Of a stretch of 64,000 nucleotides of DNA, positions 18,708-64,000 are shown in pieces. The stretch's first letter is position 1, and every line of letters starts with the position of its first letter. Location of the stretch: assembly GCF_019649055.1 (NCBI RefSeq), contig NW_026570407.1:62001-126000 (forward strand), written 5' to 3'. The notes beneath the pieces were generated by a model. That model was given only the letters and a program-made list of their open reading frames with translations. It was not told where the DNA came from and did not search any database. Position numbers and translations under genes: made by a program. This stretch comes from Paramacrobiotus metropolitanus. Lineage: Eukaryota; Tardigrada; Eutardigrada; Parachela; Macrobiotidae.

Positions 18708-18721
18708 TTGTCATCGTCCCG

Positions 18722-21163: not shown

Positions 21164-21172
21164 CTTTTGGAT

Positions 21173-23137: not shown

Positions 23138-23220
23138 GTGGGTTAGTGACTGTACAGGGGTTATGTCCGGCGGTTTAGGTTCCGGTCTTAAGTCAGGTGA
23201 GTTGCCGATACTCCCCGACC

Positions 23221-23427
23221 TTAAGCGTTTCCCGCGGTTGGGCTGGCCCGGTTGGGGCCGCCTCCGCTACCATTTGGCTTCACCAGCTGGTCCGGTATAG
23301 GTGGGAGCGCTGGCCTTTCATTGGCTGGCGTCTGGTATCCCTGTTTTGGACCATTCTGCCGGTTGCCGCCACCGGACCCATTTCCTGAGCCGGTGGACTG
23401 TCTTCGGCTGCCATTCCCCATTACCAC
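23221..23427 (-). other. Alternative reading frame at the Gag C-terminus
   Basis: A frame overlapping the end of gag is rich in Gly/Asn/Ser/Gln (GNGSRRQSTGSGNGSGGGN) and Pro. This is the composition expected after the CCHC knuckle and is seen in element 2's Gag. The annotated gag frame there is Trp/Arg-rich and atypical. A frameshift near 23430, programmed or mutational, would give Gag this tail and bring translation towards the protease frame. Confidence 0.5.
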
Positions 23428-28397: not shown

Positions 28398-28779
28398 TGT
28401 CAGATATGACACAGAAGCAGAACGAAAAGTGGGGCAAATATCGCCTTTATTGGGAACAATAAAGCAACCACAAACAAACACAGAAAACCAATGCGGTATC
28501 ACTGTGGAAAAAGTAGCTGCGAGCGCGCAAGTCAGTAAAATGGTAATGATGCAGCGTGCTGCGGGTACGCAACAGCTGATGCCGTAAAGCATGGGATCGC
28601 TCGTAGGCGCTGGGCTACGCCCCCAAGAGTGCGGAAATGCGCTGATTGGTCAGCGTAGACAAAGTATACGCTGAGTGAGCAGCGTAATAGCGCGGCACGA
28701 ATGGAGTAGCCGTGCGCGAGCGGGCGACAGAGCAAAGCCACAAGAGGTGTCTACCGCCTCGAGTGTGCGGTCTCTGACA
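28398..28779 (-). repeat. 5' LTR of element 1
   Basis: 382-bp copy of the LTR at 11226-11607, with AATAAA on the coding strand at 28446-28451. Transcription should start within it and run leftward. Confidence 0.93.
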
Positions 28780-38860: not shown

Positions 38861-41267
38861 TTAATACAAGTGCTCGCTGTTATCCTTTACGATTCCCACG
38901 ACAGCACAGCCAAACGCCCATTTCCCAACAGGAAGCTGGCATTCCGAGGTTGTCCATGTGTCCGAAAACACGTCGTAAACGTAAATCGTGTTCGTAGCGA
39001 CACTGGCCTGGTTTAATCCACCCAGAACGTAAATTTTGTTTTCCACACAGAAAGCACTGGCACAACGCAGCGGACGGCAGATATCACCTGCAACCCAATG
39101 ATAAAGCGGCATCGTACAGTTTCCAACACGCTATCTAAGCGTAGCTAGTTTACTGTACTGCTAGTTTTTTTAAAAAGAATTCCTCAAACTAGTGTATTGT
39201 ACCACAACAGCGGTACCACTTACATTTCTTAATCCACTGCTTCGTCGTGGTGTTGTAAGCTTCAACACAGCTCAAGGCGCTACCGCTCTTTCCACCTGTC
39301 AATGCAATAAAAAGAAACAACTGTTAATTCGTACAGCTTCGGAAATGTTTCGCGCCGTTCGCACCCATAACGTAAATCCACCCGTCGCATCCGACACAGG
39401 CAGAGGCGCGAAAGCGTGCAGTTGGCATCCTGGGCAACTCAAACCAGACATCCGCATTTGGGTCATAGCAGAATGCGAAATCGGTAGCCGTAAGAACATT
39501 CGACGTACAGCCACCGAAAACAAACAGCTGACCGTCGTAGCCGACAATGGCGAACTTCACCAGTGGCGTTGGTAAGGACGCCACATACGTCCACTGATTG
39601 GTGGTTACATCGTAGCGCTCCACGGTGGCCAGCGTGTGCGTATCGGTCCCATGGCCACCCACGGCGTAAATGTGGCCAGCAACTGCAGCAACACCAACGT
39701 TACCTCGGCCAGTGTGCATCGGCGCCACATCGGTCCAACAAGTACGGTCATAGCGAATCGCTCGCGGCGTCACACGCGAATCATCAAAACCGATAATGCC
39801 GCCGCAGAGGAACAGCTCATTGTTGATGACCACCAAACCGGTTTTGGCTACGCTGTACGGAAGCTGCGCCAACTGCCTCCATTTGGAAGTGATGGGGTTG
39901 AAGCCTTCGACGCTGTCCATCAGAGATGTCCAGGACGTATCGCGATGCCCTCCGGCACAAATAATAATGTTCTCAATTCCTACACCGATCACGGCAACTT
40001 AGAAAAGCGTTAGAATACTTCTGTCGGCTACAGACCTACCATACGACTTCCGAGCAACACTGCGCGACGACAGTACCCCCGCGTCGCATCCCGGTAAAAC
40101 CTGCAAATAATCCGACTGCCGCAGCAGTGCTTCTCCACCGGCGCAATCCTTGAATGCGTTGATGCAGGCCAGCAAGTAATCATTGCTGCACCGTGGGCTG
40201 AGGTAGGTGGGCCGGACGCACTGCAAGATCTCCCAGAACTTACAGCGACGCTGCACTGGATCATGCTGGAGCCAGCGGATGACAGCGAGCAGAACCTGGT
40301 CTTCACAAGGCACTTGAAGATCGTCGGAGCGAATGATGTCGATAACCTGCCAAATACAAAGATGTGGGCCCATCTGATATGCTTCGCTGAACGATCTCGC
40401 AACTTCATATTCAGTATTATTATCCAATAATGTAAAATTTACGCTACTGATAGAATCGTAGCATGGCGTAAAATAAATACCTTTTCGTCTGGCACTTCAA
40501 GGAATTCCGGCTGCTGAGAAACAGAAACAAAACACTGGAGAATCAAAGCCTTGGCTTGGCGTGCTAACGCAGCGTTCTTTTGCCCAGCGGAATCCGCAAA
40601 ACAGTACACCATCAGGCAGTTCTGAACGTCGATGCGGTTTTCCATAAACTTGCAGCAGGCGTCTACGATGGTGACAATGTCGAGGAACGATGCGGCAATA
40701 AGCAATGACTGCACATTACTGTCGGTGAGGAGGATATCTTCCATGTAGCAATAGTCAATTAACCTGCCAACATAACTTGATAGTATTACGAAGTACTTTG
40801 TGCAGCAAGAAAAAAACCCGCAATAAGGTCCGCGCGCACGAAGCACACGGAAAACAGACTGAACGTCAAACTCCCAGTACATTTTAGAAAAAATTGCCTA
40901 ATCGCAACCGCAAGACGGCGTAACTAAACGTCCAACTTGGAGAAAACGAGACTTACTCGGATAGAATGGTATGGGAGATGTTCCGCAGCTGGATAACTTC
41001 CTGTGTGGATTCCTTCATTCCCGACAGAAACATGGTGCGAAAATACCCACTGTGCACACAGAGGACGCTGCGATGACATGGAATCCCTGTAGACTGTACT
41101 TCGGCCCCACGCAGCTCCACATCACATAATACCCTCAAAGCTCGCAGATTTTGCCATTCCCGACGCATATCCACACTACTCGCCGCAACACGAGTGCCAT
41201 TCGTATCTTGCTGTGAACACTGTTCCTCGTGGTTTTTTAACTTTACTTGTTCACCATTGACTGCCAT
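38861..41267 (-). CDS. Kelch-like protein, BTB-BACK-Kelch (intact, K2)
   Basis: Exons are 40957-41267, 40481-40763, 40040-40346, 39365-39979, 39224-39295 and 38861-39087. All borders are GT-AG and all phases agree (2,0,1,1,1), giving 1815 nt and 604 residues, the usual KLHL size. BTB: FCDVELRGAEVQS-like core (LCDVELRG, HRSVLCVHSGYFRTMFLSGM, LLTDSNVQSLLIAASFL). BACK: IIRSDDLQVPCEDQVLLAVI, RWLQHDP. Kelch blades: IIICAGGHRDTSW, LFLCGGIIG, HIYAVGGHG, LFVFGGCTS, WIYVMGG and KIYVLGG. KLHL proteins usually bind Cullin-3 through BTB-BACK and recruit substrates through the Kelch propeller for ubiquitination. No lesion was found, unlike its neighbours K1 and the chimera. Confidence 0.9.
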
Positions 41268-46962: not shown

Positions 46963-47186
46963 TATGAAATCACTTGAAAAAATAGCAAATTCAATTTCGT
47001 ATTATGAGCACTATGAGCAAATTTATCAAAAACATATGCTTTATTTGGCTAATTAACCTTTCAAAAACGGCCCCGCTCAGTAACTCACCAATTATTCAGC
47101 TAACAAACACTACGCTTGTCAGAAGTTGCCAAAGTTCTGTAATACGTACATTTACACAGGGTTACATACATCATACATGAACTTGT
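46963..47186. other. Spacer between locus III and element 2
   Basis: About 220 bp, AT-rich, without recognisable features. Confidence 0.5.
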
Positions 47187-47536
47187 GAGACGAGGGCTCA
47201 CTAGCGTTCACGCCTGTGGCGCTAGGCGCTACGCCGATGGATTACGGTCTGTGTTGTGTCTCGCTCTGATTGGCTTGAGTTGTGTAGTGGGCGCGGCATA
47301 GCACGTGCTGCACAGTGATGCACACTGTAGAATTGGCTCTACGATTGACGATCGAGCTGCGCCGATCAGTGGTTGATTTTCTGTGCTCCAGACTTTCAAT
47401 AATATTAAAAGTCAGCGATTACGGTGCGACGTTTTGTGTTTCCGCATAGTTCGCGAACCAGATCGTTTCGCTCACTCTACGGGATAGATTCCGTTTCTGT
47501 CTCCGTCCCTGGATCCATTCTGGATCTAGCATTAGA
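47187..47536 (+). repeat. Probable 5' LTR of element 2
   Basis: The right limit comes from the primer-binding site at 47537. The left limit, TGTGAGACGAGGGCTCAC, is a guess by analogy with the 382-bp LTR of element 1. The region has a CCAAT-type box (GATTGG), GC-rich GGCGCTAGGCGCTACG and an AT-rich CAATAATATTAAAA in comparable order. The other LTR lies outside the window, so neither border can be proved. Confidence 0.4.
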
Positions 47537-47548: not shown

Positions 47549-48968
47549 CGACAGCGGTTCTCTGATTTTAATTGATCTGATTTGATTTGACTGGTATCAG
47601 GCAAAGTTGGCCTGTTATTTGACGTGTTCACCGTGACCAGTAAGGCACAGGTCTGTCCACAAGCAAAGCGCAACACCACAAGCGGTGCAATTTTCCCCCA
47701 TCGGACGTGGATTACCAGCTTCGGTTTTTGGTACGGTATCTTCAGCGAAGAACCGTGCTGTTTCCTTAGCTGTGCAAGAGTTCAAGAGTTTCAGTCGTCA
47801 GTGTTCCTCGGTGTAGAGTCTTCAGCGAAGACCTACACTGGTGTCACTGATACTCGGCAAGGCTTCAGCGAAGCCTAAGCCGTGGGCCACAAGCGGCGAA
47901 GCGCCAAAAGGGGCGCACGGGAAAAGACCAGATCAGACTCCTCCAAACTGGAGTAGAGCACTACTACTGTTGCTACGGCAGTCAGCCGGCACAGTAGCAG
48001 ACTAAAAGCGTGCGGCACAACCGCTACGGAAAAGCGGCAACGCAGGAGCGGATTGTGGAGAAGAAATTGGATCATTTGGATCATTTTCCCGTGGAACGGA
48101 CGGTCAACAGGTAGAAACCGTTATTAATTACGGGATTGGTTAGACAGTAAAATCCGCAATTTCTATTGGCCGATACTGAGCTGAGCGTAGACGTAGGCGG
48201 GATTTGCACACGGTGCGCATGTCTGGCCGTTGACCGTGACGTCAGGCACTTATAAAATCTTAATGGTTTAACGTGATTGGTCGATTATCTGAGCCGTGAT
48301 TGGTCAAAATTTGAACCGAATCATTTGAGCTAGCGGACCAATAGGAACGGAGTAAACAACGTAAATGGGGATTTTCCGTTGAACTTTAACTGTAAAAAGG
48401 CAAATTGAGATGAGACGAGATATTTGAAAAGAAAAGTGACCTTTAACCAAAATTGAGCTGGAAAGTGACCTTTAACTAAAATTGAGCTAGAAAGTGACCT
48501 TTAACTGAAATTGAGTTGGAAAGTGACCTTTGTCTTGAATTTAGCTGAAAGTGACCTTTTAACAGAAATTGAGCTGGAAAGTGACCTTTGAGCTGAGTTG
48601 AGTTTGGAAGTGACCTTTAAGACCTGAAACTGACAAACAGTGACCTTTATCGAAGCGAAGTTGAATTGTGTAATAGTACAGCGATATCAGCAGCTGTAGG
48701 AAATTGTTCGTAAACGCGTTCCGAATTGTAAAAGCGGTGTCGAAGTTTCGTCTGGAAAGTGACCTTTAGGGCAAATTTCTCGAACTTTTTACCGAAAAAG
48801 TGACCTTTAAACGGGACTTAGACGAATTTTTTCAACCGAAAAGTGACCTTTAACAGGAACTTTGAAAAATTCGTAGAGCGTAAAGTGACCTTTAGGGCAA
48901 TCGAATAAACCATACAATAACGTGTGTGTGAGAACAATTGGCAGGAGCGTCAAAGTTATCCGATCAAC
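47549..48968 (+). other. 5' leader of element 2 with GTGACCTTT array
   Basis: About 1.4 kb between primer site and Gag ATG. The first part has three TTCAGCGAAG copies (about 47742, 47821 and 47864). From 48436 it carries 12 copies of GTGACCTTT, all in one orientation. ORFs here are short. Packaging, translational control or transcription-factor binding are possible roles, all inferred. Confidence 0.7.
48436..48650 (+). repeat. Eight GTGACCTTT units at about 29-bp spacing
   Basis: GTGACC starts at 48436, 48465, 48494, 48523, 48551, 48581, 48610 and 48640. The units resemble GTGACCTTTAACTAAAATTG plus AGCTGGAAA, with the nonamer invariant and the rest diverged. Further copies without regular spacing are at 48759, 48800, 48843 and 48885. 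No CRISPR interpretation fits: there are no unique spacers and the host is a eukaryote. Confidence 0.9.
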
Positions 48969-49694
48969 ATGGATAAAGACAACGCGGAACGGACATCTAA
49001 CAGCAGCCAGGGAAGCAGGAGCTCCCGCGGATCACAGCAAGGCGCAGTTGATCCTTATAGAAAAGAATACAAGTCGCTCGCGCGTCCAGTCGGACATGAC
49101 AGACAGACCCGAGCAGCCGTGACCTTTGCAAGGAAGGACAGCAAAGGCAGTGACAGTACATACAAAGTGGCGCTGGGAGCTACAGAGAACGAAGAGAGCT
49201 CCAGCGGAGATGGAAAGCAAACCCCCGCGTTCGTGGCGGGAGGAAAACCGATGAACCAGAAAAAGGTCACTGGTGAGGATGGAACCATAAAAACGGAAGC
49301 GGAAGCAGTCGGGGCATCACAGCTGGATGCTACCATTGTCAGAATAGAAGAGCAGGATAAAAAGGCAAACCTGACTCAATCGGAAGGTGGAAACACAAAG
49401 GTCACCGAAGCGGAACTGGCTGAACTTGGATTGAGTGACCTTTCGCTGAATGACAAAACGGCGGATGATGACCTTTGGGCAACTCCAATGGTCTCCGATG
49501 AATTAAACGAATCATATTTCACGGATGACGAGACGACAATGAACATGTCCTTCCAAACCGCGATGAAGGAAGCTGACCGTGCTGAAGGGATAACACCATT
49601 CAAAGACATACCGGAACACCTTATCGAACGCACACAAACGGGAAGGTCATCAATGTTCGACCGCCATCACCGAACAGTCCCACAACGACTTTGA
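48969..49694 (+). pseudogene. Element 2 Gag, N-terminal part
   Basis: ATG at 48969 (MDKDNAERTS). The product is hydrophilic, Ser/Thr/acidic, about 240 residues, without a glycine at position 2, so the myristoylation signal of element 1 is absent. It ends at a TGA while the coiled-coil continuation begins in another frame at about 49691, so a frameshift separates the two. It contains GTGACCTTT/AAAGGTCAC copies in more than one codon phase (VTF, KVT, SDL). Confidence 0.7.
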
Positions 49695-52600
49695 GGACTC
49701 GCGTGAGGGAGTTGGAAAGCGAATTCGAAGCCAAGGGGAGTCAGGCAATGAAACGAACGAAAGAAAACCGGGATAAACTGTCGTCCCTGGAAGCCCGGAT
49801 TTATGAATTGGAACAACAACAAGTTGACTTGGAAAGCGCAGCGGATGAATGGAAAATCAAATACGAACGTCAAAGAGAACTCGCGGAAGAATATTTGAAG
49901 ATGACAGATGACAGAGAAATGGAAGGTCATCTCGCAGTCGGTGATCTTAATGAGAGTATGTCCGAAGAAACAGCGGAAAGGTCACGGCACTTAGCAGAAT
50001 TGAAGGACGAATGAGACTCGCTGAAGTCAAAGGTCACCGAAGCTGAAACGAAAAGAGATGAATATGCAAACAAACTCGCCGATGCTACTCAGAGGTTGTT
50101 GACGAACACCACTGAAGTCTTCAAGCTCAGGAATGACCTGAAGCTGCGCGACGAGAATATCGGGACCCTCCAGAAGGAGTCATACGACCACCAGAGAAGG
50201 GCTGATGAAGCCGCTAAGGTGGCAAAGGACTTGCGAGATCTTACAGCCACCGAAGGTGTACGGTTGAATAATGAAATAAGACAGGTGATGGAAGAGAACA
50301 AGGCGTTGAAGGAGGACAACAAAAAGGTCACTGAAGAGATCAAAGAGTTGAAAGAAGCCGCGAAGACAATTGCCGACCAGGGCTTGAGATGGGAGCATGA
50401 GGCGCGCCTCCTGGACACAAAGGTCACGGCACTTGAACTGAAAGATAAAGAGTGGCAACAGACGGTCCATCAGAAGACACAGGAGATCATCAAACTCAAC
50501 ACGGAGTTGATCGATATGACCCAAACGGCAATGATGAGAGAAGATGAGGTCAATCAGACAAAAACCCAACTGAAAGCGGCAGCCGATGAGTATTCGAAAC
50601 TGGAAAGAGACGTGACCCAGTTGGCGGAACACATCAGGAAAGTGGAAAATGATACTGAAAAGGTCACCCAGGAAAAAACGTTCCAACTACATCAGCACAT
50701 GTTGAAGGTCAACGAAGAGAATCAAAAATTGAAAACTGAAAAGGAGGAATATCAGTTGAAAGTCAGACGCCTTGAAGACGAGAATAAGGCCCTCAACATG
50801 TCAAACAAACACAAGGATGAACAGCTTCTGCAATATGGAGTCAGAACAGCAGCAGTGGAATCACCGCCGCCCAGTTACAGCAAAGCACATGAAACGGGCA
50901 CGGGCAAAAGTTTCCATTTTGAAATGCCGCTACGAACTGGTACCGGCAAAGGAAATGTCAAAAATGAAACGAACGGTGACCAGGACAAAGAACTACCATT
51001 AGGAGGTTATCCACAAACGAGTCACGGTGATCCCTCCCAATTTCCCCCGCACATCGAAACGAATGTCTTCGTCGATGAAGGGAGAAGAGACCGACCGCCC
51101 AGCCGGCAAGAGCGCCCACGGAAGTCCCGCTACGGAAAGGCGAAACGAAACCAAAACGACGATGAAAGTAGCGAAGAGGAGGATGACCCGACAGCAGAAT
51201 CGACAGCCGCACAATTGACAAAAGCACTCAATTCGATGGCTCGGAAAACGACGTTAGTGACCTTTGATGGAAGTCGCGATGCAGTTAATGGCTGGACACA
51301 ATTGGTCAGGGATACGCAGCGAACATACCGACTTACTGACGATCAAATCCTAATCGAAATAGCTAGTGCGGTGAAGGGACCGGCAAAAACCTGGTTCGAA
51401 GGAGAGAGAGAAATCGCACTCCAGGAAGAGATCGAATATACGGTTACAGAATGGATGACCAAATTCAAGGATGAATATGGTGACCGTGACGAAGAAGTTC
51501 TTGGGTTACGGGAAGCCATGGCAGGGAAATTTGACCTTGGTAAAGAATCGCTTGATCAGTTTTATCAAGCGATCATGAAATTCAAGGCAAAGAGAATCAT
51601 AACCGAAAAACAAGCAGTTGGTTTCCTGATCGAAGGATGCAGAGTCGACGGTGACCTTTACAGAGCACTGCGTACACAGCAGTGCAGAACGCCAACCGAA
51701 ATCAAAGATTTCTTCCGACATTGGTCAGCTGGAGAAGAGAAATACAAGGCTCCCAAAAGTCAACGTAACCAAGATTACGTGACCATCCGGTCTGGACAAG
51801 TCGAAACGATGCCACAACAAAGGATTGCGGCAGCGCCGGTTCAACAGGCGGTGGAATACCGCAGAGAAGCCCCGGTGCAAGAGGTCACAAAGGAGGTGAC
51901 CTTTATCGACAGCCAGACGGGACAACCAATTACGTACGCTATGGTGGCGGCAATCCAAGCAGCGGCTCAAGTGAGACCGGCACTTCAGAATGTGGCTCCA
52001 CCGGCACCACAGAATGTGGCCCCTGTGAATGTTGGGGTACCACAACAGGGAACGGGCAACTGAAATTTCGGTGGAAACGGATACGGAAATGGAAATTGGA
52101 ATGGAGGTCAAGGGAACTTCCAGAATCAGGGTCAAGGTCAAGGCAACTTTCAGCCAAACAGAGGGAATCAGAATAATTTCCAGCAGAATCAAGGGTCACG
52201 AACTGAGTTCAAGTTTCAGATGATCGACGGATGGGTTGCAAACGGCGTGCAGATGTGCCAGTACTGTATGTACGGTAACCACCAGACCCAAGGATGTAAG
52301 TTCGCGAACACGCCGCCAGACCAGAATCCGAACCTGTTCGCCTTCAGAGAGTGGCAACGCCTTCGCGCCACAGGCGGCTGGCGTCAGGCGGTGGCAAACG
52401 GATATGACCTGATTGCGCAATGGTACCAGGCTCGGGCAAACTTCCCAAATCAACAAGGAAACGGGAATAACGGAAATGGCGGTGGCCAGAATGGTGGCTA
52501 CGGCCGTGGTGGCTTCGGCCGCGGCGGCTTCAGAGGAAGAAACAGAGGCTTCGGCCGCGGAAATTGGAATGGCGGCAACCGAAACGGTGGAAACGGGGGT

Positions 52601-52792
52601 GGCCAAGGAAACTACCAACAGGGTGGTGGCCAAAATAATGGTGGTGGTCAAAACAATGGTGGTGGCCAGAATAACGGAGGCGGACAAAATTATGTCCCGG
52701 TGAATAACGGCGGACAAGGAAATGTGCAAGGAAATGTGCAGGGCGCGCAACAAGGTGGTGCGCCGGTTCAGGGAAACGGGCAAGATCAGTAG
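49691..52792 (+). pseudogene. Element 2 Gag: coiled coil, PPSY, capsid, CCHC, Gly-rich tail
   Basis: One reading frame interrupted by TGA at 50012-50014 and 52061-52063. Residues from 49691 to about 50830 form a very long coiled coil (VRELESEFEAKG onward). PPSY is at 50867-50878. The capsid-like part (VTFDGSRDAVNGWTQLV, YTVTEWMTKFKDEYGD) is at about 51250-51740. The CCHC knuckle CQYCMYGNHQTQGC is at 52256-52297. A Gly/Asn/Gln-rich tail ends at TAG 52790-52792. The architecture equals element 1's Gag, and the PPSY position after the coiled coil is conserved. It would form particles if intact. Confidence 0.82.
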
Positions 52793-52845
52793 GCACCGGT
52801 GAGCCTACTGATCGACCCGACCCGAAACCACCGGATAAAAGGGAA

Positions 52846-53478
52846 ATGGAAAGGTCACCACTGCAGAATGGTACTGCAGTGAATGTGACCACTGTGACGG
52901 CTATAAGGATGCCGTCAGCGCAAAAAGAAAGTGGACCGGCTATATGGATGCCGCAACCACAGCAAACGGCTATATGGATGCCGCCACAGCAAATAGAAAC
53001 GGCTAAATGGATGTCGTCATTGCAAAAGAAAATTGAAACGGCTATAAGGATGCCGTCACAGCAGCAAAAAGAACTGGTTATCGGGAAACCAGTACAAGTG
53101 GATAAAAGGTCACCGCAGAATGGTACTGCGAGTGGAAACGCGCAACGGGACCAAAGGTCACCGCAGAATGGTACTGCGAGTGGAAATCGTCGTGACGGTA
53201 GCGCGACACTGCGAACAGCACAGCAAAATGAAAGGTCACCGTACTGCAGCGAAGAAGTGCTAGCGCAACGACGCGCACAACGGAATGCAAAGATTAAACA
53301 GGCGCTGCTGAACCAGAAGAAACCGCAGAACGACACTGCGCAAGAGGTAAATAAGCAACATGCAAAATTCCGGAAATACTTGGCAGAAAACGATAAGGGA
53401 ATGAGCCAAGTTGCGACTGTTACGGAGAACCAAAGCCAAAGTTTTGGAATTGTTCCGAGGACGAGGAAGAGAAATTGA
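52846..53478 (+). CDS. Repeat-rich ORF between Gag and protease (element 2)
   Basis: About 210 residues, ATG at 52846. It contains short peptide repeats: six variants of ACGGCTATAAGGATGCCG (TAIRMPSQQ, TAIWMPPQQ) at 52900-53070, and SPQNGTASGN twice, encoded by copies of AAAGGTCACCGCAGAATGG. It ends in a TGA overlapping the first codons of the protease frame (TTGATAAGG). No known domain. It may be the N-terminal part of a Pro polyprotein reached by frameshift, or repeat-expanded noncoding sequence that happens to be open. Confidence 0.45.
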   Translation: MERSPLQNGTAVNVTTVTAIRMPSAQKESGPAIWMPQPQQTAIWMPPQQIETAKWMSSLQKKIETAIRMPSQQQKELVIGKPVQVDKRSPQNGTASGNAQRDQRSPQNGTASGNRRDGSATLRTAQQNERSPYCSEEVLAQRRAQRNAKIKQALLNQKKPQNDTAQEVNKQHAKFRKYLAENDKGMSQVATVTENQSQSFGIVPRTRKRN

Positions 53479-56105
53479 TAAGGCAAAAATGGATGGAACA
53501 GAATATCCCTGTTACCAGTAAAGATGAAAGGTCATTTTCCGTAGGAACAGTCCAAGTGAAAAGTAAAGGAGCAAGTGCGAACGCTAAAGGTCACGGTGAA
53601 AGCGCCGTGTTAAAAGGTCAAGAAACAGACTTGACACTGCGAACAGCGCAGCAGAAGAATAGCGAACCGGCACAGCAGAACTCCGACGACTCACTTGTGG
53701 ATGCAGTAACGCTGCAACGGAAGGAAATATGGCAAAAAGTAGCTTACAGACCGAATGGGAATCACGGGATGTGGATACCCGTGACGCCAAAAGCAAAAAA
53801 GAAGGCGGGAATGTCACAAGAAGACTACAGGGATATGCAGGAATTGCGAACGCAATATGAGAGAAAACGACTGGAAGAATTGGTTACTGGGAAAGAAGTT
53901 AAAAGGTCACCGAACCTTGCTCCAGTATTCAACGCAACTGAATACAAGAATGCACAAGCTGACCTGAATAACCCGCGAAACGCACCGCCGGAAAACAAAC
54001 CGCTGAATTATGGAGAAAAAGTCCCCAAACAAAAGCTGACAGGCGGCGGATTTGTTATAAAGCGCAATGAAAGGTCACAGGACTTAGCGCAAAATGAACA
54101 AAAAGGACGGTCAAATGAGATGGCGCAAACGCAACAGAGTAGCGCAGCTGAGAGGTCACGGGACTTATCGCAAGCATTACAAAAGGATGCCAACGACAAA
54201 TCACCAGCCCGAACGGATGGAATGTCTTCACAGACTAACCCGACGAAAACGAATAATGAAGTGTCAGCAAAAGTCATTGAATGGATGACCGAAAAGGGAT
54301 ATGATATGGTAACATATGAAAGGTCACCAAATGAGATGAAAGATAGCGAAGCAGATGAATTGAAGCGAGCTGACCAAATAACAAGTGAAGTCATTGAGAA
54401 GCTGCGAGACAAACGAAATGAAAACTGCAAAGAGGAACTGATCCACGAGACGATAAATGAAGTGACTAAAGGTCACGTGGACAGCACAAAAGCGAGCGAG
54501 CAAGTGCAGAAGGCTGAAAAGGTCACCAGTGGTAAAACGGTTACAGAAAAGCAAGTTGACAAGACAAAAACGCGACAATTTTACGACGTTCGAGCTGACG
54601 TTCCACACAGGATTGATAAGTTGAGCGAGATACTGAAAGGTCATAGCACTCTAGCTAAAGGGCAAGCGCTTCCCGATATGGATCCGGGACCAGTATCGCT
54701 AATTCCTGTGAAATGCAAGATTCACACCTTGAAGATTCAAAACGGAAAATTGCCTAAGAGAATCGAAGCGTACACTCACGAAGTGAAAGTTGGAGATATA
54801 AAGGTCAACGCAATGCTGGACACCGGCGCCGAGACGTCGCTGATCAGTAAACCGTTTTACGAAACAAATGGACTTCATATGCTCCCATTGCCACCAGACA
54901 GATTGGTGAAGATAAACGGAATTAGCGGAACGTCAGGATTCCTGGTGACGCATTACTGCGTAGCACCAGTGACCTTAAGGAAAAAGACTAGCGAACATTC
55001 ATTTTACGTCCGACCGAAGTGCGACGACGTACAGGTGCTACTGGAATTCGACTTCTTAGAGAAGAAGTTCGTACTAATGGATAACGAAGGCGAAGAAGAA
55101 ACAGAAGATGATCCGAAACCAGCTGCCAAAGTTCAAGTCGGAAAGGTCACCGAACTTGTAAAACAGACGGGAAATGCTCAAACGGTTAATAAAACGCTAA
55201 TCCCAGTACCAGAGGCACCGGGAAAGGCAAAGGAAATGAGGGCGAAAAAAGAATTGTCACCATTTGAGCAGCTACAAATGATTCAACAGGAGATTGAAAA
55301 CACACTAAACCGGACAATGCTGACACAAAAGGGAAGAGAAAAGGTCATCCCAGTACCAGAGGCACCGGGAATGACGAGAGTGCAGCAAAACGAGATTAGC
55401 CAACGGACAATCCCGGTACCACAGGCACCGGAGAAGAAAAGCGAAAGTGGAAATGCCAAAAAAGCGAACGAGAGGAAAAAGGAACCGCTTACGCCAGACA
55501 CGGAAGAGGCGATCATATTTCTCCCGGACGGGAGAAGTATGATCGCAGATAACGGTGAGCAAGGAGCCACAGAAAAAGAATACGTCGAAAAAGCTATCCC
55601 AGTACCAGAGGCACTGGGAAAGGAAAACGAAAGGTCACCAGCGACAAGAGTTGCGAACTTGGAACCAGAGCGCACTTCGAACCTTTTCGAACCACGACCT
55701 GCTACCGAAAATGAAACCGAAGAAAAAGATTTGCAAAGAGTACCAGAGCGTACCCCGAATTTTTTCGAACCTCGATCTGCTACTGAAAATGACGAAAGGT
55801 CACCAACACTAGAAGAGATTGCTGCCACACAGAAAGAAGCGACAGCTGCAGCGAAAGAATCGCTTGTGCCTGGCATGGAGTGGGCAAAGCCTATCCCAGT
55901 ACCAGAGGCACTGGGAATAAAGACGGCTAAAGTCACAAAGGATAAAAAGAGTGAAAGGTTGCGGATATTGAAACGAATAGCCGAAGAAGAGCAGATGTTC
56001 GTGAGCGAAATCCGCAACAAAGCACTTGAACAATTGAAAGGTCACCAACTGGACAATAAAACAGAAATTATTGAAATATCCTCCGACGAAGCGAGTATAA
56101 CATAA
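53475..56105 (+). CDS. Protease region of element 2
   Basis: 876 codons. Retropepsin MLDTGAETSLISKPFYETNG is at about 54815-54870, preceded by PDMDPGPVSLIPV, which matches the DDPGPVSLIPI in element 1. The N-terminal half is Lys/Glu/Ser-rich with repeated ERSP(N) motifs encoded by GAAAGGTCACC. After the protease are five copies of IPVP(E/Q)A(P/L)G/E and two of FEPR-ATEN. The frame ends at TAA 56103-56105, and the same frame continues open beyond, so the stop could be a CAA-to-TAA mutation. Protease processes the polyprotein. Confidence 0.8.
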   Translation: MIRQKWMEQNIPVTSKDERSFSVGTVQVKSKGASANAKGHGESAVLKGQETDLTLRTAQQKNSEPAQQNSDDSLVDAVTLQRKEIWQKVAYRPNGNHGMWIPVTPKAKKKAGMSQEDYRDMQELRTQYERKRLEELVTGKEVKRSPNLAPVFNATEYKNAQADLNNPRNAPPENKPLNYGEKVPKQKLTGGGFVIKRNERSQDLAQNEQKGRSNEMAQTQQSSAAERSRDLSQALQKDANDKSPARTDGMSSQTNPTKTNNEVSAKVIEWMTEKGYDMVTYERSPNEMKDSEADELKRADQITSEVIEKLRDKRNENCKEELIHETINEVTKGHVDSTKASEQVQKAEKVTSGKTVTEKQVDKTKTRQFYDVRADVPHRIDKLSEILKGHSTLAKGQALPDMDPGPVSLIPVKCKIHTLKIQNGKLPKRIEAYTHEVKVGDIKVNAMLDTGAETSLISKPFYETNGLHMLPLPPDRLVKINGISGTSGFLVTHYCVAPVTLRKKTSEHSFYVRPKCDDVQVLLEFDFLEKKFVLMDNEGEEETEDDPKPAAKVQVGKVTELVKQTGNAQTVNKTLIPVPEAPGKAKEMRAKKELSPFEQLQMIQQEIENTLNRTMLTQKGREKVIPVPEAPGMTRVQQNEISQRTIPVPQAPEKKSESGNAKKANERKKEPLTPDTEEAIIFLPDGRSMIADNGEQGATEKEYVEKAIPVPEALGKENERSPATRVANLEPERTSNLFEPRPATENETEEKDLQRVPERTPNFFEPRSATENDERSPTLEEIAATQKEATAAAKESLVPGMEWAKPIPVPEALGIKTAKVTKDKKSERLRILKRIAEEEQMFVSEIRNKALEQLKGHQLDNKTEIIEISSDEASIT

Positions 56106-56192
56106 ATCGAATGTGAGCAAAAAGCCACAACACAAAAGAAGGAGGTTGCCAACCCGCAAACGAACCGAAGGATATTAACTCCAGAAGAACGA

Positions 56193-57437
56193 ATGGGGAG
56201 TTGCGGACACGGTTACTACGAGGATCCGTGTAGAGTGCAACCACAACGGGAATGCACTGAATGTTGTCAAAATGCATCCCAAGATGACCTTTCAGAATGG
56301 CCGAGATGTAACGCTGCATTATCAGATCTTAAAGGTCAAGTCCAAAAGAAAACGAAAAGCATCATGCGGACAAACGAAATGTGGAAGCCACACATCGAGC
56401 GGTATCATTGGAATAGATATCGGACTTGGTTGTCGTGTGTTAAAAACTTCATTACGGGGAGAGGAAAATGGCTGAACCATTGGCAGCACCGTGTGGACAA
56501 CGGAATCCAAGATCCTCCTGACCCGGTATTAACTGAGCGGAAACTTGAAAGAGAGATAGACTCAATGAACGAGAAAGTACAGCTATGGGAAGAAGCTAGA
56601 ATAGAATTGTTCTGGGACTTCCGCATAAATCACATGTACAAAGGTCAAGGGAGAACAGTTATATTTCCAACAGGACTTGGTACACCGGTACACGAATCGG
56701 TGGTGGTATTCTGCAAAGCACTCAAAGATGATAACTGGGAGATATTCGGCAAATACTGGAGGAAATTCGAAGCGGAGATTCCTATATTTGATACAAAGGA
56801 GATGCGAGAATTGCAAGTGACCCGGAAAAGAAGGTTACCGGGACTGATGGAGAAGAAAAAGGTGACCTTTGCACCAGACCCTGACGGAGTTGAATACCCT
56901 GAACGGGGTGGCGACACGTGGTGCATGTATGAAACGATTCCGAGTGATGATTGGGTCACCGAAGAGCTGATGGCAAATTGTGTCTTCGTTGGTCCCAAAC
57001 GACCTAAAGGTTACGAGACGGTCCAACAGGATGGAGTTGATAAAGAGACTATAAAAGAAGCAGAGAAGGAGGAAACAGTTAAAGAGACAGCTGAAGGAGG
57101 ATCAAATGAAACAGAAGAAAGTCCGAAATCAGCCTTCGACATTGCACAGATGTTAACGGACAGAGGAGAAATGTGGAAGAAGTTCAAAGAGGAAGTCGAA
57201 AGGATATCGAATGAACAGCAAAACCCAGTAACTGAGGCAAAAAACGGGGAAAGGTCACTCGATAACGGTGAGGAATGCCCGCCGGTCAAGTCGACCGAAA
57301 AGCCATTAACGAACCTCGAGAAAATAGAAAAGTCAAAATTGGACGAAGAAAGGTCAAACTCCGATCAATCAGAAAGGTCACCAACGAGAATCCGGGTAGC
57401 AAGGAGTCACCCAAGAGTCGCTGCACGAAATGGGTGA
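56193..57437 (+). CDS. Conserved PR-RT linker domain of element 2
   Basis: Begins with a Cys cluster (SCGHGYYEDPCRV, CTECCQ). It then has RYRTWLSCVKNF and LWEEARIELFWDFRINHM, which align with RYKTWFTGVRNF and LWEDERLALVWEYREYHM of element 1. A Lys/Glu-rich tail follows. The frame is shared with both the protease upstream and RT downstream, separated only by TAA 56103-56105 and TGA 57435-57437. Function unknown. Confidence 0.7.
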   Translation: MGSCGHGYYEDPCRVQPQRECTECCQNASQDDLSEWPRCNAALSDLKGQVQKKTKSIMRTNEMWKPHIERYHWNRYRTWLSCVKNFITGRGKWLNHWQHRVDNGIQDPPDPVLTERKLEREIDSMNEKVQLWEEARIELFWDFRINHMYKGQGRTVIFPTGLGTPVHESVVVFCKALKDDNWEIFGKYWRKFEAEIPIFDTKEMRELQVTRKRRLPGLMEKKKVTFAPDPDGVEYPERGGDTWCMYETIPSDDWVTEELMANCVFVGPKRPKGYETVQQDGVDKETIKEAEKEETVKETAEGGSNETEESPKSAFDIAQMLTDRGEMWKKFKEEVERISNEQQNPVTEAKNGERSLDNGEECPPVKSTEKPLTNLEKIEKSKLDEERSNSDQSERSPTRIRVARSHPRVAARNG

Positions 57438-57479
57438 AAGGCAAAAGAAGGGGACAAACCCCTGCTCAAAAATTCAAAA

Positions 57480-60017
57480 GTGAAAAAACTTAGTGATTCG
57501 CGGGAAAACGAGAGTGACCTTTCATCAGAAGATAAAGAAGTTGATGAGCGCCCACTCGAAACGGCTGATAAAGGTCAAGCCGCTGCACAAGAATACGAGT
57601 GCAGCGATTCGGACTCGGAATGGACGAGTTCAAGCGATAACTCGACGACTTCGGAAGATTCAGGTGTAAGTGACCTTTCAGAACAGGAGGACTTAATGGA
57701 TTTCGATGAAGATGACGAAGTGGACGAAGGAAAAGAAAAAGAAATTAAAGTCAGAAGATTGAAAGTGGAAAAGGCTAGAATGTCGAAAGATGTGATTAAA
57801 GTCTACAGTGACCAAAGAATTAAATTGAAACTGTCAAACTGCACACGGGTAAAGGTCAAGATGGGAAAATATGCACCGGCTCAGAACAAGTTGATGTTTA
57901 CACCGGTCCCACAAGTGGAAACTGAAGTACAACCGTTGGCAGGAGTGACGGATCACAGGGGAAAATACTTTGAAATCGTCATCGCGAAACACAGTAGCAA
58001 ATACCGAGTCGTAAAGAAAAATCAGCTCCTCGGATACGTTGAGCCGTATGAACATATGGAAAACGTAAAGGTCAACGCTGGGACAGTAAAGAACGTACTC
58101 GAAGACCCAGAGGTGGATGATACGACGAAAGCGGAATTGACAAAGATAATTGGAAATCTGAAACTAGGACCTGACCTAACTGAGGAACAAAAGAACGACG
58201 TGTATAACGCGTTCTGGGAATTCTGGAAGGTCTTACCCACATCAAAGAAACCATATGGAGATGTGAAAGGGGTTACTCACGTAATCGATACGGGAGATGC
58301 GAAACCAGTTAAATCTAACCCGGCCAGAACGAGTTGGACAGGCCGCGAGTTCATAACGAAGCATATAGAAGAGATGCTGGCACAAGATGTGATTGAACCA
58401 TCGGATGCCGAATGGAGTTTCCCAGTCGTATTGGCAGTGAAGAAAAATGGCGACGGAACAATGGGAACGCGATTTTGCGTCAATTACATTATGCTTAACA
58501 AACTGACGAGAAAGAATAACTACCCGCTACCGAATCCGGATGAGTTGCTCGATGCGTGCGCAGGCAACAAATACTATGGGAAAATGGACTTACAAAGTGG
58601 ATTCTGGCAGATTCCAATGGATCCAGCGTCAATCAACAAGACGACCTTTGTAACGCAAGACGGAATGTACCGATTTAAAAGAATGCCATTTGGAGTCTGC
58701 AATGGACCAGCGACATTCCAATTGTGCATGGATAAAGTGCTTTCGAAGGCGAAAAGAAAAGGTTGCGTCTTCGGATACATTGATGACGTGATTTTCGCCG
58801 GAAAAACTTGGGCGATCTTCATGCAGAACTTGAGAAACGTATTGATGAGTTTGGTCGAAGCGGGATTTACAATAAAGCCAACGAAGTGCGAATTTGGAAT
58901 GAGACAAATGGGTTTCTTGGGACATATCCTCAGTGAAGACGGAATTTGCATGGATCCGGAAAAGGTCACCGCAGTATCGGAATTCAAACGACCTCAAACA
59001 GAAAGACAGTTAAGGTCATTCCTCGGACTGGCGAATTATTATCGCAAGTTCATTATGGGATATGCACAGAAGACTTGTCATTTGTATGAGCTGTTGAGAC
59101 AAGATAAACAAGTGAAGAAGGACTGGACAAAGGTGCACGAAGAGGAATTCAACAGTTTGAAACAACTGTTGTGTGAAGGTCCAGTATTGGCAAAGTTTGA
59201 CCCGGTAAAACCGACCGTTATTGAGTGCGACGCGAGTAAAGAAGGAATTGGAGCCGTCCTATCACAAGAAGGTCATCCAATTGCATACGCGAGTCGTGTT
59301 CTACATGGAGCTGAAAGGAATTACGATGTGACGGAATGGGAATGTCTGGCAGTGGTCTTTGCTGTCAGAAAATTCAAGCCATTTATCGACTACGCGGAAT
59401 TCACCGTAAGAACGGATCACCAGGCGCTGACCAACTTACTAAGGTCAGAGACCAATAAAGTGGGAATGAACCCGCGTTTGACAAGATGGGCGATGGCACT
59501 GCAGGGTCACCAGTTTAAAATTAAATATAAACCAGGAAAGTACTGCGACAATGCGGACGCCTTATCAAGAGCGCCGATCGAAGGGCCAACTTGTCAGGAG
59601 GAAGAATTCGACGAGATCCCGAACTTCGAAGATTATAAAAAAGAATTCGACACGAAGGAACTAGCAATTGAAATTGGCCAGTTGTTCTTACAGATGGTGG
59701 AACAACGAGAGAAACGATTAAAGGTCACTTCAGCTACGGCGAATGAGTCGGCTGAAACAGAAGCGAAGGTGAACCGTGTAAAAAGTTGGCTTCCCACCGT
59801 TAGTGACTTAAAGGTCACCGGACTTGAAGCGGAATCTGAAGCACAAAATGGAAAGGTCACCGGACTTGACGAAACAATGGAGAAAAGAGATGACCTTTGG
59901 GAAACGGACAAAGTGGCACAAGCGTTGAACGAATGTCCGATTAAGTTGTTGAGATTCCCGAAACAGATGAAGAAGAGGTACAAACCGCTACCACGCTGTA
60001 AGGTCATTAAAGATTGA
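57480..60017 (+). pseudogene. Reverse transcriptase-RNase H of element 2 (copy A)
   Basis: 845 codons. An acidic N-terminus is followed by the full RT: VIEPSDAEWSFPVVLAVKKN, GDGTMGTRFCVNY, MPFGVCNGPATFQ, YIDD at 58776-58787, FLGLANYYRKFI, and RNase H TVIECDASKEGIGAVLSQEG to DNADALSRAP. It then runs into the pre-integrase linker and stops at TGA 60015-60017, where the duplicate copy has TGG. No integrase follows directly. Instead the sequence restarts inside RT (see the duplication). Confidence 0.85.
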
Positions 60018-61401
60018 AATGAACTCAGTACGGCGACAGTCCGCATCGTCAACCTACAAGGTGATGAGGAAGAGGAAGACGACTCGAACTTGCAGTTGCG
60101 AAATAAACAGTTATTGATGATAAACAGTTATTGATGAGCCTAGTCGAAGCGGGATTTACAATAAAGCCAACGAAATGCGAATTTGGAATGAAAGAAATGG
60201 GATTCCTGGGTCATATACTCAGCGAAGATGGAATTCGAATGGATCCTGAAAAGGTCACCGCAGTTAAAGAATTCAAACGACCACAAACAGAAAGGCAGTT
60301 AAGGTCATTCCTCGGACTAGCGAACTATTACCGCAAGTTCATAATGGGATATGCACAGAAGACTTGCCATTTGTATGAATTACTGAGACAAGACAAACAA
60401 GTAAAGAAAGACTGGACGAAAGTGCACGAAGACGAGTTCAACAGTTTGAAACAACTGTTGTGTGAAGGTCCAGTATTGGCGAAGTTTGACCCCGCGAAAC
60501 CGACCGTTATTGAATGTGACGCAAGCAAAGAAGGAATTGGAGCGGTATTGTCACAGGATGGACATCCCATCGCATACGCGAGTCGCGTTTTACACGGAGC
60601 CGAGAGAAATTACGGTGTAACGGAATGGGAATGTCTGGCAGTAGTGTTTGCTGTCAGGAAATTCAAACCATTTATCGATTATGCGGATTTCACCGTAAGA
60701 ACGGATCACCAGGCGCTGACTAACCTATTGAGGTCGGAAACGAATAAAGTTGGAATGAACCCGCGTTTGACGAGATGGGCAATGGCGCTGCAAGGTCACC
60801 AGTTCAAAATCGAATATAAACCGGGAAAGTACTGCGATAATGCGGACGCACTATCAAGAGCGCCAATTGAAGGTCCAACGTGCCATGAAGAAGAATTCGA
60901 CGAAATTCCGAATTTTGAAGATTACAAGAAAGAATTTGACACGAAAGAACCAGCGATTGAAATTGGACAGCTGTTCTTACAGATGGCGGAACAGAGAGAA
61001 GAACGCTTAAAGGTCACTTCAGCTACGGCGAATGAGTCGGCTGAAAACGAAGCAAAAGTGAACCGGGTAAAAAGTTGGTTGCCCACCGTGAGTGACCTAA
61101 AAGTCACCGGACTCGAAGCGGAATCCGAACCTCAAAACGGAAAGGTCACGGAACTTCATGAAACAACGGAGAATAGAGATGACCTTTGGGAAACGGACAA
61201 AGTGACACAGGCGCTGAACGAATGCCCGATTAAGTTGCTGAGATTCCCAAAACAGACGAAAAAGAGATACAATCCGTTACCGCGATGTCAGGTCATCAAG
61301 GATTGGAAAGAACTCAGCACAGCGACAGTTCGCATTGTCAACCTGCAAGGTGATGAGGAAGAGGAAGATGACTCGAACTTACAGTTGCGCAATAAACAGT
61401 T
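58841..61401 (+). repeat. 1289-bp internal direct duplication with diverged copies
   Basis: 58841-60129 and 60130-61401 align at a constant offset of 1289, covering the RT thumb, RNase H and the start of the pre-integrase linker. Differences are frequent and mostly at third codon positions. A 17-bp sequence, TAAACAGTTATTGATGA, is repeated head-to-tail at the junction (60104-60137). The divergence means the copies did not arise by a recent simple tandem duplication of one another. Confidence 0.9.
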
Positions 61402-62143
61402 GAAGGATCCCCATCTGGCAATGATAATAGACGAATTGGAACATCTACCAGATGCTGAAACGAGATCGAAATTTGAAGTGCATTACCAGTTATGGAACGG
61501 CATATTGTACCGAGTAAAGGACAAAAATGGGAAACTTGAAAGGTCATATGTGGTACCGTTGTCAATGCGAAGAGCGATAATCCACGCATTGCACGACGAG
61601 AAAGCGGCAGGACACTTTGGATTCGAAAAGACATTGACAGCAATCCGACTCCGATATTATTGGGATCGAATGAGCACAGATGTTAAGAATTACATAACTG
61701 CCTGTCAAGGATGTCAATTTCGTAAAACACCAAGGAAATGCCCACCCGGAAAACTGCAAGAGATTAAAGTGGGACATCCGTTCTTCCGAGTCTACGCGGA
61801 CTTGAAAGGACCGTTGCTACCGACGAAGAAACGTGGATATAAGTACATAGCGGTGTTCATCGATCAGTTGACGAAATACGTGATTGCCGTACCAATGAAG
61901 ACGGCTACAGCTAAAGAATTTGCAAAAGTGTTCGTGAAGCACGTGATACTAGTACACGGAGCACCGCACATCCTACATACAGATCGCGGACGGCACTTTA
62001 CAGCTGGAGTTTTGACAAAGGTCACCAATGTGTTTAAGATTAAACACACATTTGGAACAGCATACCATCCAGAAGGTCAAGGCCACGTTGAAAGACAGAT
62101 GCAGACGATTGCGGATGGCCTGGCGCAATACTTGAAAGCGTGA
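60131..62143 (+). pseudogene. Partial RT-RNase H (copy B) plus integrase of element 2
   Basis: Lacks the RT palm and YxDD. It starts at LVEAGFTIKPTKCEFGM, has complete RNase H and the linker FEDYKKEFD, then integrase: an HHCC region (HDEKAAGHFG ... CQGC, about 61590-61720), then the DDE core in YADLKGP, HTDRGRHF and GHVERQM. The frame stops at TGA 62141-62143, and the integrase sequence continues from 62144 in the next ORF. Element 1 is uninterrupted at the equivalent place. Confidence 0.85.
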
Positions 62144-62188
62144 AACGAAAGAAAGTTCAACAAGTACCTCCCATATGTCATTTCGGCG

Positions 62189-63325
62189 ATGAACAGAGTT
62201 GTACACGCCACGACCGGATATTCAGCATATTATATGCTGCACGGCAGAGAAATGACAATGCCGGAGGACGTGGTCACAAAAACGAACATCCCGGACGATT
62301 ATGGGACCCCAGACGAATGGGTAGAGACCATGAAGAAGAACTTGACCTTTGCCGAAGAGGTGGCGAGATGTAACATCAAAGATGCGTACGAAAAGAACGC
62401 GGAAATTTATAACAAGAAGAAATCGGAGCCGAACTTCAAAGTCGGCGACTTTGTATTGATACGACTCCCAAAGGATACGAAACAGGGGAAGAAGGAGAAC
62501 CAGTCAGACTTTAAGTCAAAATACGATAAAGTATGGAAAATTCTTAGCTTCCCGCGAGCAAATGAAGCAGAGGTCATTGAACAGAACCCAAAGAAGGAAG
62601 CGGACTTAAAGGTCGTCTCAATCGACCGTCTTAAACCATGGCATCCACCATTGCCAGATGAAAAGTTGGAAGACGATCCTCAAGGAGAGATGGAATCAGA
62701 GCGAAGTCCACAAAATGATTTGAATTCCCAACGCAAATCATTTTTCGAACCACCTCTGCTACCCGAAAAGAAAAAGTCGGAAGAAGATAAACCCAGTGAA
62801 GCCGAGCAGGCTACGAAAAACGATACCAGTCAATTTTTCGAACCACGCTCTCTGTTACCTGATACAGGTGGAGATAAACCAAAAAAGAAGAGAGGGAGAC
62901 CGAGGAAAGAGGATAAAGACTTTGAGACAGCGGTTACAATAAAGTTGAACGCAGAAGCTGGGAATCTGGCAGAAAGGTCACCAGAAACTGGTGACCTTCC
63001 TGCCACATTACCAAATCGCCAGAAGGATGGCGAAGTACCAGAGCGTACTTCCAAAAAGGATTTGCAACAATCCTTTTTCAAACCACGCACTGCTACGATG
63101 AATGATAATGACCTCATAGAAACGAGAAAAGAGGAAATAGAAGCGGTCAAATCAAAAGCTGAACAATTGGGCCGTGATATAGCGAAAGCCATCGCGGAGA
63201 GAAAGGCTAAACAGAAGAAAAAGAAACTGACTCCTACGGAATTGTTGACCCAAAATGGTGAAGTTGAAGATGCGGCCGACAAAGAACTTCTTGATCGGAT
63301 AACTAAAGGACGCAAAGAAAATTAA
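62189..63325 (+). pseudogene. Integrase C-terminal part of element 2
   Basis: Continues the catalytic core (MNRVVHATTGYSAYYMLHGR aligns with MNRAVHATTGFSPYHMLYGR of element 1). It then has the SH3-like GDFVLIRL region, and a long Lys/Glu-rich tail with three FF-(E/K)-P motifs. It ends LLDRITKGRKEN at TAA 63323-63325, as the integrase tail of element 1 does (LLTRITTGREK). Confidence 0.78.
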
Positions 63326-63445
63326 CCCAAAAGTATAAGGGGTTTTTACTTCACTAAAAATAGGAGTTGGGAAGGCGTAAAAAGGTCACCACCGCTATGA
63401 GAGCTAATCAATATTGTTTCATTATTACAGAAGGTAAGCCAGTTA

Positions 63446-63895
63446 ATGGATAGATTGGAACGACAGAATTCAGAGAATTCGGATTCGGAAAGTATTGGAA
63501 ATCCATTAAAGACATCGACCCCAAAAAGAATGGAAGGGGAATATGGATACGACACTTCATATGGCGAAGGGTCGACGTCGTCAGCAGGAACGGCACAGAA
63601 CGAGCCAGGCCAGGGAGGTTATTATGGCGGCCCGGAGTATTACGTGTATCACGATCCGGGACAGCAGACGACTTACCAAGACACGGTTAACTGGGTGCAC
63701 CACGGCTTACCTGCCGGAACCCAGTATGCGGGACAAATAATGAGTGCCCCTTATCCACCGCATCCGGGATCGTATACCCCACCGATGGGACCACCGCAAA
63801 TGATGGGACCGGCAAGAATGTTGATGCCGCCACCGCAACAGACTACACCGAGCAGACTTGTGACTTGGGACATGGAGGATTTGGCGGAATACTAG
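63446..63895 (+). CDS. Proline-rich ORF in the env position (element 2), partial
   Basis: ATG at 63446 (MDRLERQNSENSDSES). It is rich in Gly/Tyr/Pro (GGYYGGPEYYVY, PPHPGSYTPPMGPPQMMG). It stops at TAG 63893-63895, but another frame stays open to the window edge (SPILPPFPESGGLSLLDIG), so a frameshift near 63880 is likely and the real protein is longer. Position and composition match the 676-residue ORF5 of element 1. No signal peptide or membrane segment. Confidence 0.6.
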   Translation: MDRLERQNSENSDSESIGNPLKTSTPKRMEGEYGYDTSYGEGSTSSAGTAQNEPGQGGYYGGPEYYVYHDPGQQTTYQDTVNWVHHGLPAGTQYAGQIMSAPYPPHPGSYTPPMGPPQMMGPARMLMPPPQQTTPSRLVTWDMEDLAEY

Positions 63896-64000
63896 CGGCC
63901 CAGTCGCAAAGGTCATCCCCGATATTGCCGCCTTTCCCAGAATCGGGAGGCCTGTCACTGTTAGACATCGGAACGCCTCGTATGAGAACACCGCAGCAAC

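Follow-up and report, generated by a model that had tools for sequence, protein, structure and literature searches.

The stretch of DNA analysed here (the window) comprises 64,000 nucleotides, bases 62,001-126,000 of one contig of the Paramacrobiotus metropolitanus genome (169.8 Mb), and carries a giant Ty3/gypsy-type long terminal repeat (LTR) retrotransposon, hereafter element 2. The element is carpeted with the octamer AAAGGTCA followed by any base but G (AAAGGTCAH), and selection keeps these sites at the DNA level, though the proteins do not need them. A preliminary description of the window had noted roughly 50 exact copies of the nonamer AAAGGTCAC or GTGACCTTT in element 2 where chance predicts fewer than one, and the counts agree: 53 were found in the window (33 on the plus and 20 on the minus strand), all within 48436-63389, against a chance expectation of 0.64 (maximum 3 in 100 dinucleotide shuffles). 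Outside element 2 the window contains no nonamer, and the remainder of the element, past the window end, contains 10 more.

Abundance and unit of the repeated word

The unit of the carpet is the octamer and not, as had been proposed, the nonamer. The octamer occurs 97 times in element 2, and the base that follows is C in 63 cases, T in 21, A in 13 and G in none. The LTRs of the element contain no octamer, and the window outside the element contains one, at 1679. The 12 copies of the leader, ahead of the first open reading frame (ORF), all point one way (GTGACCTTT), and the body beyond holds 85 octamers. Over the whole element the mean gap is 246 bp, the spacing is close to random (coefficient of variation 1.06) and phasing at 10.5 bp is weak.

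Synonymous codon shuffling (200 shuffles of 12 ORF stretches, 20,220 bases, running past the window end) gave a mean of 3.0 sense nonamers (maximum 9) against 37 observed, and of 0.17 antisense nonamers (maximum 1) against 8 observed. Therefore neither protein sequence nor codon usage makes the carpet, which upholds the earlier view that protein selection cannot explain it. The two shuffle means also indicate that codon constraints favour sense copies, which accounts for the sense majority within genes. The nonamers had been said to occur in both orientations and in all three codon phases. Within genes they do run both ways, and sense copies use three phases, but antisense copies use two (the third would carry a stop codon, as read from the letters) and the leader is one-way.

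Selection on the sites

Constraint was measured in 29 other copies of the family (loci L012-L040) mapped on the window copy over 56106-60014; these are the best 30 of 55 matches, one of which was the window copy itself. The test thus spans 3.9 kb of an element of about 25 kb, and elsewhere the case is built on enrichment and on comparison with a distant family (locus L048), which ends in the reverse transcriptase (RT) ORF. Synonymous third positions were changed in 15 of 769 comparisons inside nonamers (2.0%) and in 9,256 of 31,383 outside. These raw counts are not independent, as the copies are related, and resampling was run over the 27 codon sites. The control matched for codon identity changed at 26.4% (standard deviation 5.7%), all 20,000 resamples lay above 2.0%, and change within nonamers is about 13-fold below that of matched codons. 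The motif sites thus do not show the ordinary synonymous divergence that, in the preliminary description, would have spoken against the carpet.

The constraint has sharp edges. GGTCAA, AGGTCA, AAGGTC and AAAGGT were the least changed of 107 6-mers tested, and a footprint over 18 octamers shows 0-3.7% base change at the eight positions against a background of 12.7%, rising to 11.0% at the preceding and 8.5% at the following base (6-18% over six bases each side). Moreover, orientation makes little difference, with 46/2,992 octamer positions changed in sense copies (1.5%) and 19/1,144 in antisense copies (1.7%). C to G made up 15 of these 65 changes, above the background spectrum. Some of the sites had also been reported as kept between the two halves of an internal duplication of the window copy, and indeed one of 40 octamer positions differs between the halves, compared with 159 of 1,233 positions outside.

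Individually, gene-internal sites are kept in 63-100% of the 30 copies (window copy included). One of the less well kept lies at 57373 (19/30), and of the 20 AAGGTCA heptamers examined, one among those without the leading A is kept in 3 of 29 copies. Well-kept examples are as follows:

56862..56870, minus strand: antisense coding site, kept in 27/30 copies and identical in L048.
58961..58969, plus strand: sense site, kept in 30/30 copies.
59810..59818, plus strand: sense site, kept in 30/30 copies.

Three other stretches of this region are also unusually conserved. At 58320-58345, in the RT ORF, CCGGCCAGAACGAGTTGGACAGGCCG hardly varies, with 4 changes summed over 30 copies; its 21-nt core shows 2 synonymous changes where 48 were expected, which points to a second cis element. 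Two further 21-nt stretches, 57234-57254 and 56181-56201, show 0 and 2 synonymous changes against 45 and 39 expected; the former overlaps the start of a motif site.

Conservation in a distant family and loss in a sister subfamily

The sites are old. L048 (C1:209300-219200) belongs to a family with 34-61% protein identity to element 2 where the two align. Its 9.9 kb include 45 octamers, none followed by G, and 32 nonamers. It keeps 18 of 29 gap-free aligned octamers, compared with 136 of 5,262 other 8-mers (2.6%), and codons for the same amino acid have changed in 4/62 cases inside octamers and in 489/891 outside.

By contrast, a sister subfamily (L041-L047) whose RT is 82-84% identical to that of element 2 has no nonamer and a single octamer in seven stretches totalling 63 kb, against 97 octamers in element 2. 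The sister is nearer to element 2 than L048 is in 5 of the 6 ORFs alignable to both, the protease ORF identities overlapping (44-56% for the sister, 42-51% for L048). The sister copy tested keeps none of 48 aligned octamers, although it shares 10% of the other 8-mers. At that rate 0/48 has a chance of about 0.6%, so that the loss seems to go beyond simple decay, though the sites are not fully independent of each other. As the far relative keeps octamers and the closer sister copy lacks them, the simplest history is that the carpet was probably present in a common ancestor and disappeared from the sister subfamily. Thus the concern that relatives lack the motif applies to the sister but not to the more distant L048.

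We considered whether the sister subfamily had switched to another word. AGGTCA is mildly in excess there (50 vs 33.4 expected) and the octamer is not (1 vs 4.7). GAGATCA is enriched (54 vs 15.1, summed over six related copies), and a first scan weakly favoured a switch (GAGATC changed 9/156 vs 23.8 expected, ATCTC 12/260 vs 37.2), but GAGATCA failed the footprint test, with a mean change of 0.069 against a median of 0.066 for 60 random 7-mers. AGTACCA, which also appeared in the sister scans, is a word of a repeated stretch that is little changed, as are its flanks. A private carpet in every giant family was likewise considered and dropped. In element 1, the other Ty3-type element of the window, GGCCAA (55 vs 21.0 expected) and GTCCAA (39 vs 13.7) are enriched but unconstrained, with synonymous change in 18/91 cases against 18.1 expected (RT region, three other copies). 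As these failures show, the method does not report constraint for just any word.

The site elsewhere in the genome

Across the genome AAAGGTCAC occurs 19,414 times, against 3,461 for the reversed word (5.6-fold), whereas AAAGGTCAG, in which the ninth base is G, is 1.7-fold over its reversed control. The motif is therefore in excess genome-wide, a point that the preliminary description had raised against its own reading, but the nonamer is absent from the window outside element 2. Counted with a 26-base tag taken from its RT region (up to 3 mismatches), the element 2 family has 108 copies in the genome; the reversed tag finds none. With at most about 60 nonamers per tagged copy, we estimate an upper bound of about 6,500 of the 16,000 excess nonamers for this family, so that a further share must come from the distant family and from other repeats.

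Close pairs of sites number 72 in the genome and 4 in the control. Eight pair loci were cut out, two of which overlap a third, and none of the six compared is similar to element 2 in DNA or to the proteins of elements 1 and 2. L001 and L006 represent the same element in two copies, and its ORF for polymerase B was identified in L006 (PF03175, E 5.5e-39). Four octamers lie in about 200 bases directly before this ORF (L006:1488-1690), and L001 has four within 73 bases; two more places in the genome share the spaced site pair. The same site is thus used by an element unrelated to element 2.

The paired sites at L003 and L008 lie in arrays of units of about 100 bp, most with paired AAAGGTCAC; those of L008 are in inverted orientation, as in a foldback element.

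A candidate binding protein and its role

A short asymmetric word, constrained regardless of orientation and with sharp edges, points to a protein-binding site on double-stranded DNA. We regard it as an even call whether the octamer is the recognition site of a host double-stranded-DNA-binding protein that would likely open or insulate chromatin. On this proposal, a sequence-specific protein would bind AAAGGTCA(H), and the retrotransposon would have been selected to keep about 100 sites, as a tight one-way array before the first ORF and as scattered sites in its genes. The binder would most likely be host-encoded, with an NR4A/NBRE-type nuclear receptor as a plausible candidate, and binding would hold the integrated element in open or insulated chromatin, permitting transcription despite host silencing. 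A host protein is preferred to one of the element's own mainly because an unrelated element, one well-identified case, uses the site. An effect on chromatin, whether as anti-silencing, insulation or activation, is suggested by the likeness of the leader array and carpet to the gypsy insulator and to the targets of VANC.

Of the roles offered in the preliminary description, a receptor- or regulator-binding carpet is the one favoured by the 8-bp footprint, its indifference to orientation, the depressed synonymous change and the match to a receptor site. A silencing target that harms the element is disfavoured, since the sites are retained.

Sites for NR5 and ERR receptors want TCA ahead of AGGTCA. 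The bases that stand ahead of AGGTCA in element 2 differ from this and agree with NR4A. In the host genome, 63 exon matches to zf-C4, the receptor zinc-finger family, were found. The ten of these stretches that were read presumably include NR5-like, COUP-like, tailless-like, two RXR-like and two ERR-like domains, judged by landmarks. The octamer equals, letter for letter, the NBRE bound by NR4A receptors (PMC6912296; here and below, statements on published systems refer to the available parts of the cited papers).

Several points weigh against the host-protein proposal. None of the ten zf-C4 stretches was recognised as NR4A-like; the sister subfamily lives without a carpet; and an ordinary activator would not need one in gene bodies. 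Moreover, the large accessory ORFs without a confident domain leave room for a binder encoded by the transposable element, and one accessory homologue has a borderline linker-histone match. Finally, the unrelated element would be Polinton-like, a label taken from its polymerase alone.

A more specific version, which we consider doubtful, is that of a host-receptor password. Here the approximately 100 sites would recruit a nuclear-receptor-like host protein along the whole integrated element and so keep the element out of heterochromatin, the Polinton-like element sharing the password and the sister subfamily having dropped it. If true, a shared host receptor would be a common entry point that keeps unrelated parasites of one genome active. 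Whatever the binder, strong synonymous constraint on a dispersed 8-bp word ties many codons to a function at the DNA level, AAAGGTCA followed by a base other than G is a sharp prediction with which to fish for the protein, and the sister subfamily without sites provides a natural control.

Alternative explanations

Of the alternatives, one in which the element's own protein binds the octamer survives best, although we hold it to be unlikely. An accessory ORF 3′ of the integrase, or the first ORF, would encode a protein that coats the element in the manner of VANC, with the Polinton-like element either hitchhiking or representing a separate case. A carpet shared by two related families but missing from a closer subfamily is what co-evolution of motif and binder predicts, and the homologues of the accessory proteins (6 and 16 for two queries) all come from P. 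metropolitanus. In addition, one of the six homologues P0006-P0011 (of the region L009:3-3860), P0009, has a linker-histone match at residues 1094-1151 (E 2.4e-4, 21.7 bits, under the 22.4-bit cut-off), and a second accessory family (P0013, P0014, P0015, P0021) carries CX2C-X12-CX2C near its N-terminus. However, the site is also clustered in the unrelated polymerase B element and in repeats without homology to element 2, and no known sequence-specific DNA-binding domain reached cut-off in the scanned ORFs and homologues. Furthermore, if P0011 and P0015 (64% and 79% identity) belong to the sister locus L045 on contig C104, these proteins have been kept without the sites; C104 holds L045 and also one tag of the element 2 family. 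Searches of PDB sequences with the accessory proteins gave no significant match (best E 0.11), and a structure model of the accessory protein P0012 (mean pLDDT 42) was too poor for use.

It is improbable that the sites serve transcriptional control only, the leader serving a host activator as promoter or enhancer, and the body sites serving it as intragenic enhancers. Arrays do stand directly before the first ORF of element 2 and before the polymerase ORF of the Polinton-like locus, yet this fails to explain why gene sites kilobases away are not redundant but kept individually in most copies.

Slimmer still is the chance of a function in RNA, either by pairing of the leader GUGACCUUU repeats with AAAGGUCAC in the body or by binding of Gag to an RNA motif for packaging, the latter having been raised in the preliminary description. 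The leader copies are all antisense and the body copies mostly sense, so that 9-bp RNA duplexes are possible, and L048, a distant relative, has the same arrangement. Nevertheless, antisense body sites, which cannot pair with the leader, are as constrained as sense sites, which also speaks against a packaging mark, and codon constraints alone already favour sense copies. Nor are changes that would keep wobble pairing favoured (of the 65, 28 were A to G, with about 24 expected, and 3 were C to T, with about 6 expected), and pairing leaves the forbidden ninth G unexplained.

Least probable of all is an artefact of mutation or copying (gene conversion, a local mutation cold spot or a spreading repeat unit), for although leader arrays are tandem repeats and can spread, an 8-bp footprint with near-background flanks is not expected from gene conversion, the sites lie in both orientations and several phases among unrelated flanks, many are common to families at 34-61% amino-acid identity, and the same kind of test gave no constraint for the element 1 word and no footprint for the sister word GAGATCA. 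The self-spreading repeat suggested earlier may accordingly describe the leader, partly built of 29-bp tandem units, but finds no support at the other sites, with their varied flanks that change at 6-18%.

Comparison with known systems

In the Arabidopsis anti-silencing system of VANDAL21 and VANC21, a 9-base motif, YAGTATTAY, is dense in a single transposon family but scarce among the relatives of that family, occurs in tandem units of one orientation and shows turnover between close subfamilies (PMC5735166). Element 2 is similar in having a dense short motif that is absent from a close subfamily, but its motif is also found in an unrelated element. Furthermore, the VANDAL motif is mainly non-coding and bound by an element-encoded protein (PMC5735166), whereas element 2, an LTR element and not a Mutator-like DNA transposon as VANDAL is, carries its motif within coding sequence too, pointing either way and under synonymous constraint. 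Pfam scans of the element 2 ORFs gave no match to VANA or VANC genes, although Pfam may lack a VANC model. Element 2 would be an animal case, in another class of element, of what VANC does in plants.

The gypsy insulator of Drosophila has 12 clustered Su(Hw) sites in 340 bp of the 5′ untranslated region (PMC2374998). The leader of element 2 likewise has 12 clustered sites, in 458 bp, but the gypsy cluster is confined to the 5′ untranslated region in the available text (PMC2374998), while element 2 adds its body octamers; nor does AAAGGTCAH match the Su(Hw) consensus YRYTGCATAYYY (PMC2374998). A carpet through genes was not found described in the available parts of the sources on the gypsy insulator and VANC. 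The NBRE, the site of NR4A (NGFI-B/Nur77), is bound by monomers or homodimers in target promoters (PMC6912296), and the footprint in element 2 has just its length; the NBRE is known from promoters of target genes.

The giant gypsy-like Burro elements of planarians have additional coding capacity, and their internal sequence can reach 25 kb (PMC6431247). Element 2 resembles them as a giant gypsy-like LTR element with extra ORFs, but none of the named Burro domains was found in the element 2 ORFs scanned, and the available part of that source mentions no carpet (PMC6431247). Our literature search found no paper joining Paramacrobiotus with a retrotransposon, and no title or start of an abstract on a carpet in coding sequence (coverage mostly excluding subscription papers). 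Alu repeats, which are short and non-coding, differ from element 2 in having no carpet through genes. They are nevertheless a mobile element that spreads nuclear-receptor response elements and half-sites (PMC1785376).

Structure of element 2 and its surroundings

Element 2 measures 25.4 kb and spans 47184-72573 in window numbering. The preliminary description had placed the carpet in an element of the window; a Ty3-type element does carry it, but extends 8.6 kb past the window end. Its domains lie in the order PF13650, PF00078, PF17917, PF17921, PF00665 (protease, RT-RNase H, integrase), and several extra ORFs gave no confident match in domain scans. Its features are as follows:

47184..47446, plus strand: 5′ LTR, with TG...CA ends, 263 bp and 99.2% identical to its partner.
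L009:8311-8573, outside the window: 3′ LTR, which pairs with the 5′ LTR.
48436..48893, minus strand: leader array of 12 nonamers, all antisense.
48921..49691, plus strand: ORF piece 1 (the first ORF), whose counterpart in the sister subfamily is part of a 771-aa ORF; 4 nonamers.
50015..52060, plus strand: ORF piece 2, matching the same sister locus as piece 1, with nonamers in both orientations.
52064..56102, plus strand: pieces of the Gag-like (a label suggested by position) and aspartyl-protease ORF, with PF13650 in 53475-56105 and 14 nonamers, all sense.
56106..57434, plus strand: ORF piece that separates protease from RT and was used in the synonymous-constraint test together with the RT-RNase H ORF.
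57438..60014, plus strand: RT-RNase H ORF, the other ORF in that test.
60107..62140, plus strand: second RNase H copy (duplicated stretch 60129-61401) and integrase.
62144..63322, plus strand: ORF behind the integrase, with a weak AT-hook match below cut-off.
63691..64000, plus strand: start of an accessory ORF, which continues in L009 and is followed by three more ORFs to 70854 (window numbering).

The reading frame of the window copy is broken into pieces, while other copies have open frames of more than 3,000 codons. No target-site duplication is present at the ends of the window copy (flanks GAACT and GCTTT), and no TGG start of a tRNA primer-binding site follows directly behind the 5′ LTR. 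The stretches 58840-60112 and 60129-61401, which form the internal duplication, are 87.4% identical to each other, and the other 29 copies cut out all lack the duplication. As the two halves differ by as much as separate family members do, the window copy looks chimeric, and the duplication is likely a product of recombination, template switching or an assembly join.

Searches of the host for the SL1 family and for TTAGGG found nothing, one of these searches being silent in control genomes as well. Element 1 (11226-28779, minus strand) has 382-bp LTRs that are 100% identical and AATG on both sides, which together point to a recent insertion, and contains tandem repeats of 45 and 47 bp at 12785-13242. 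Between elements 1 and 2, at 39324-39992, lies a Kelch-repeat ORF of a host-like gene.

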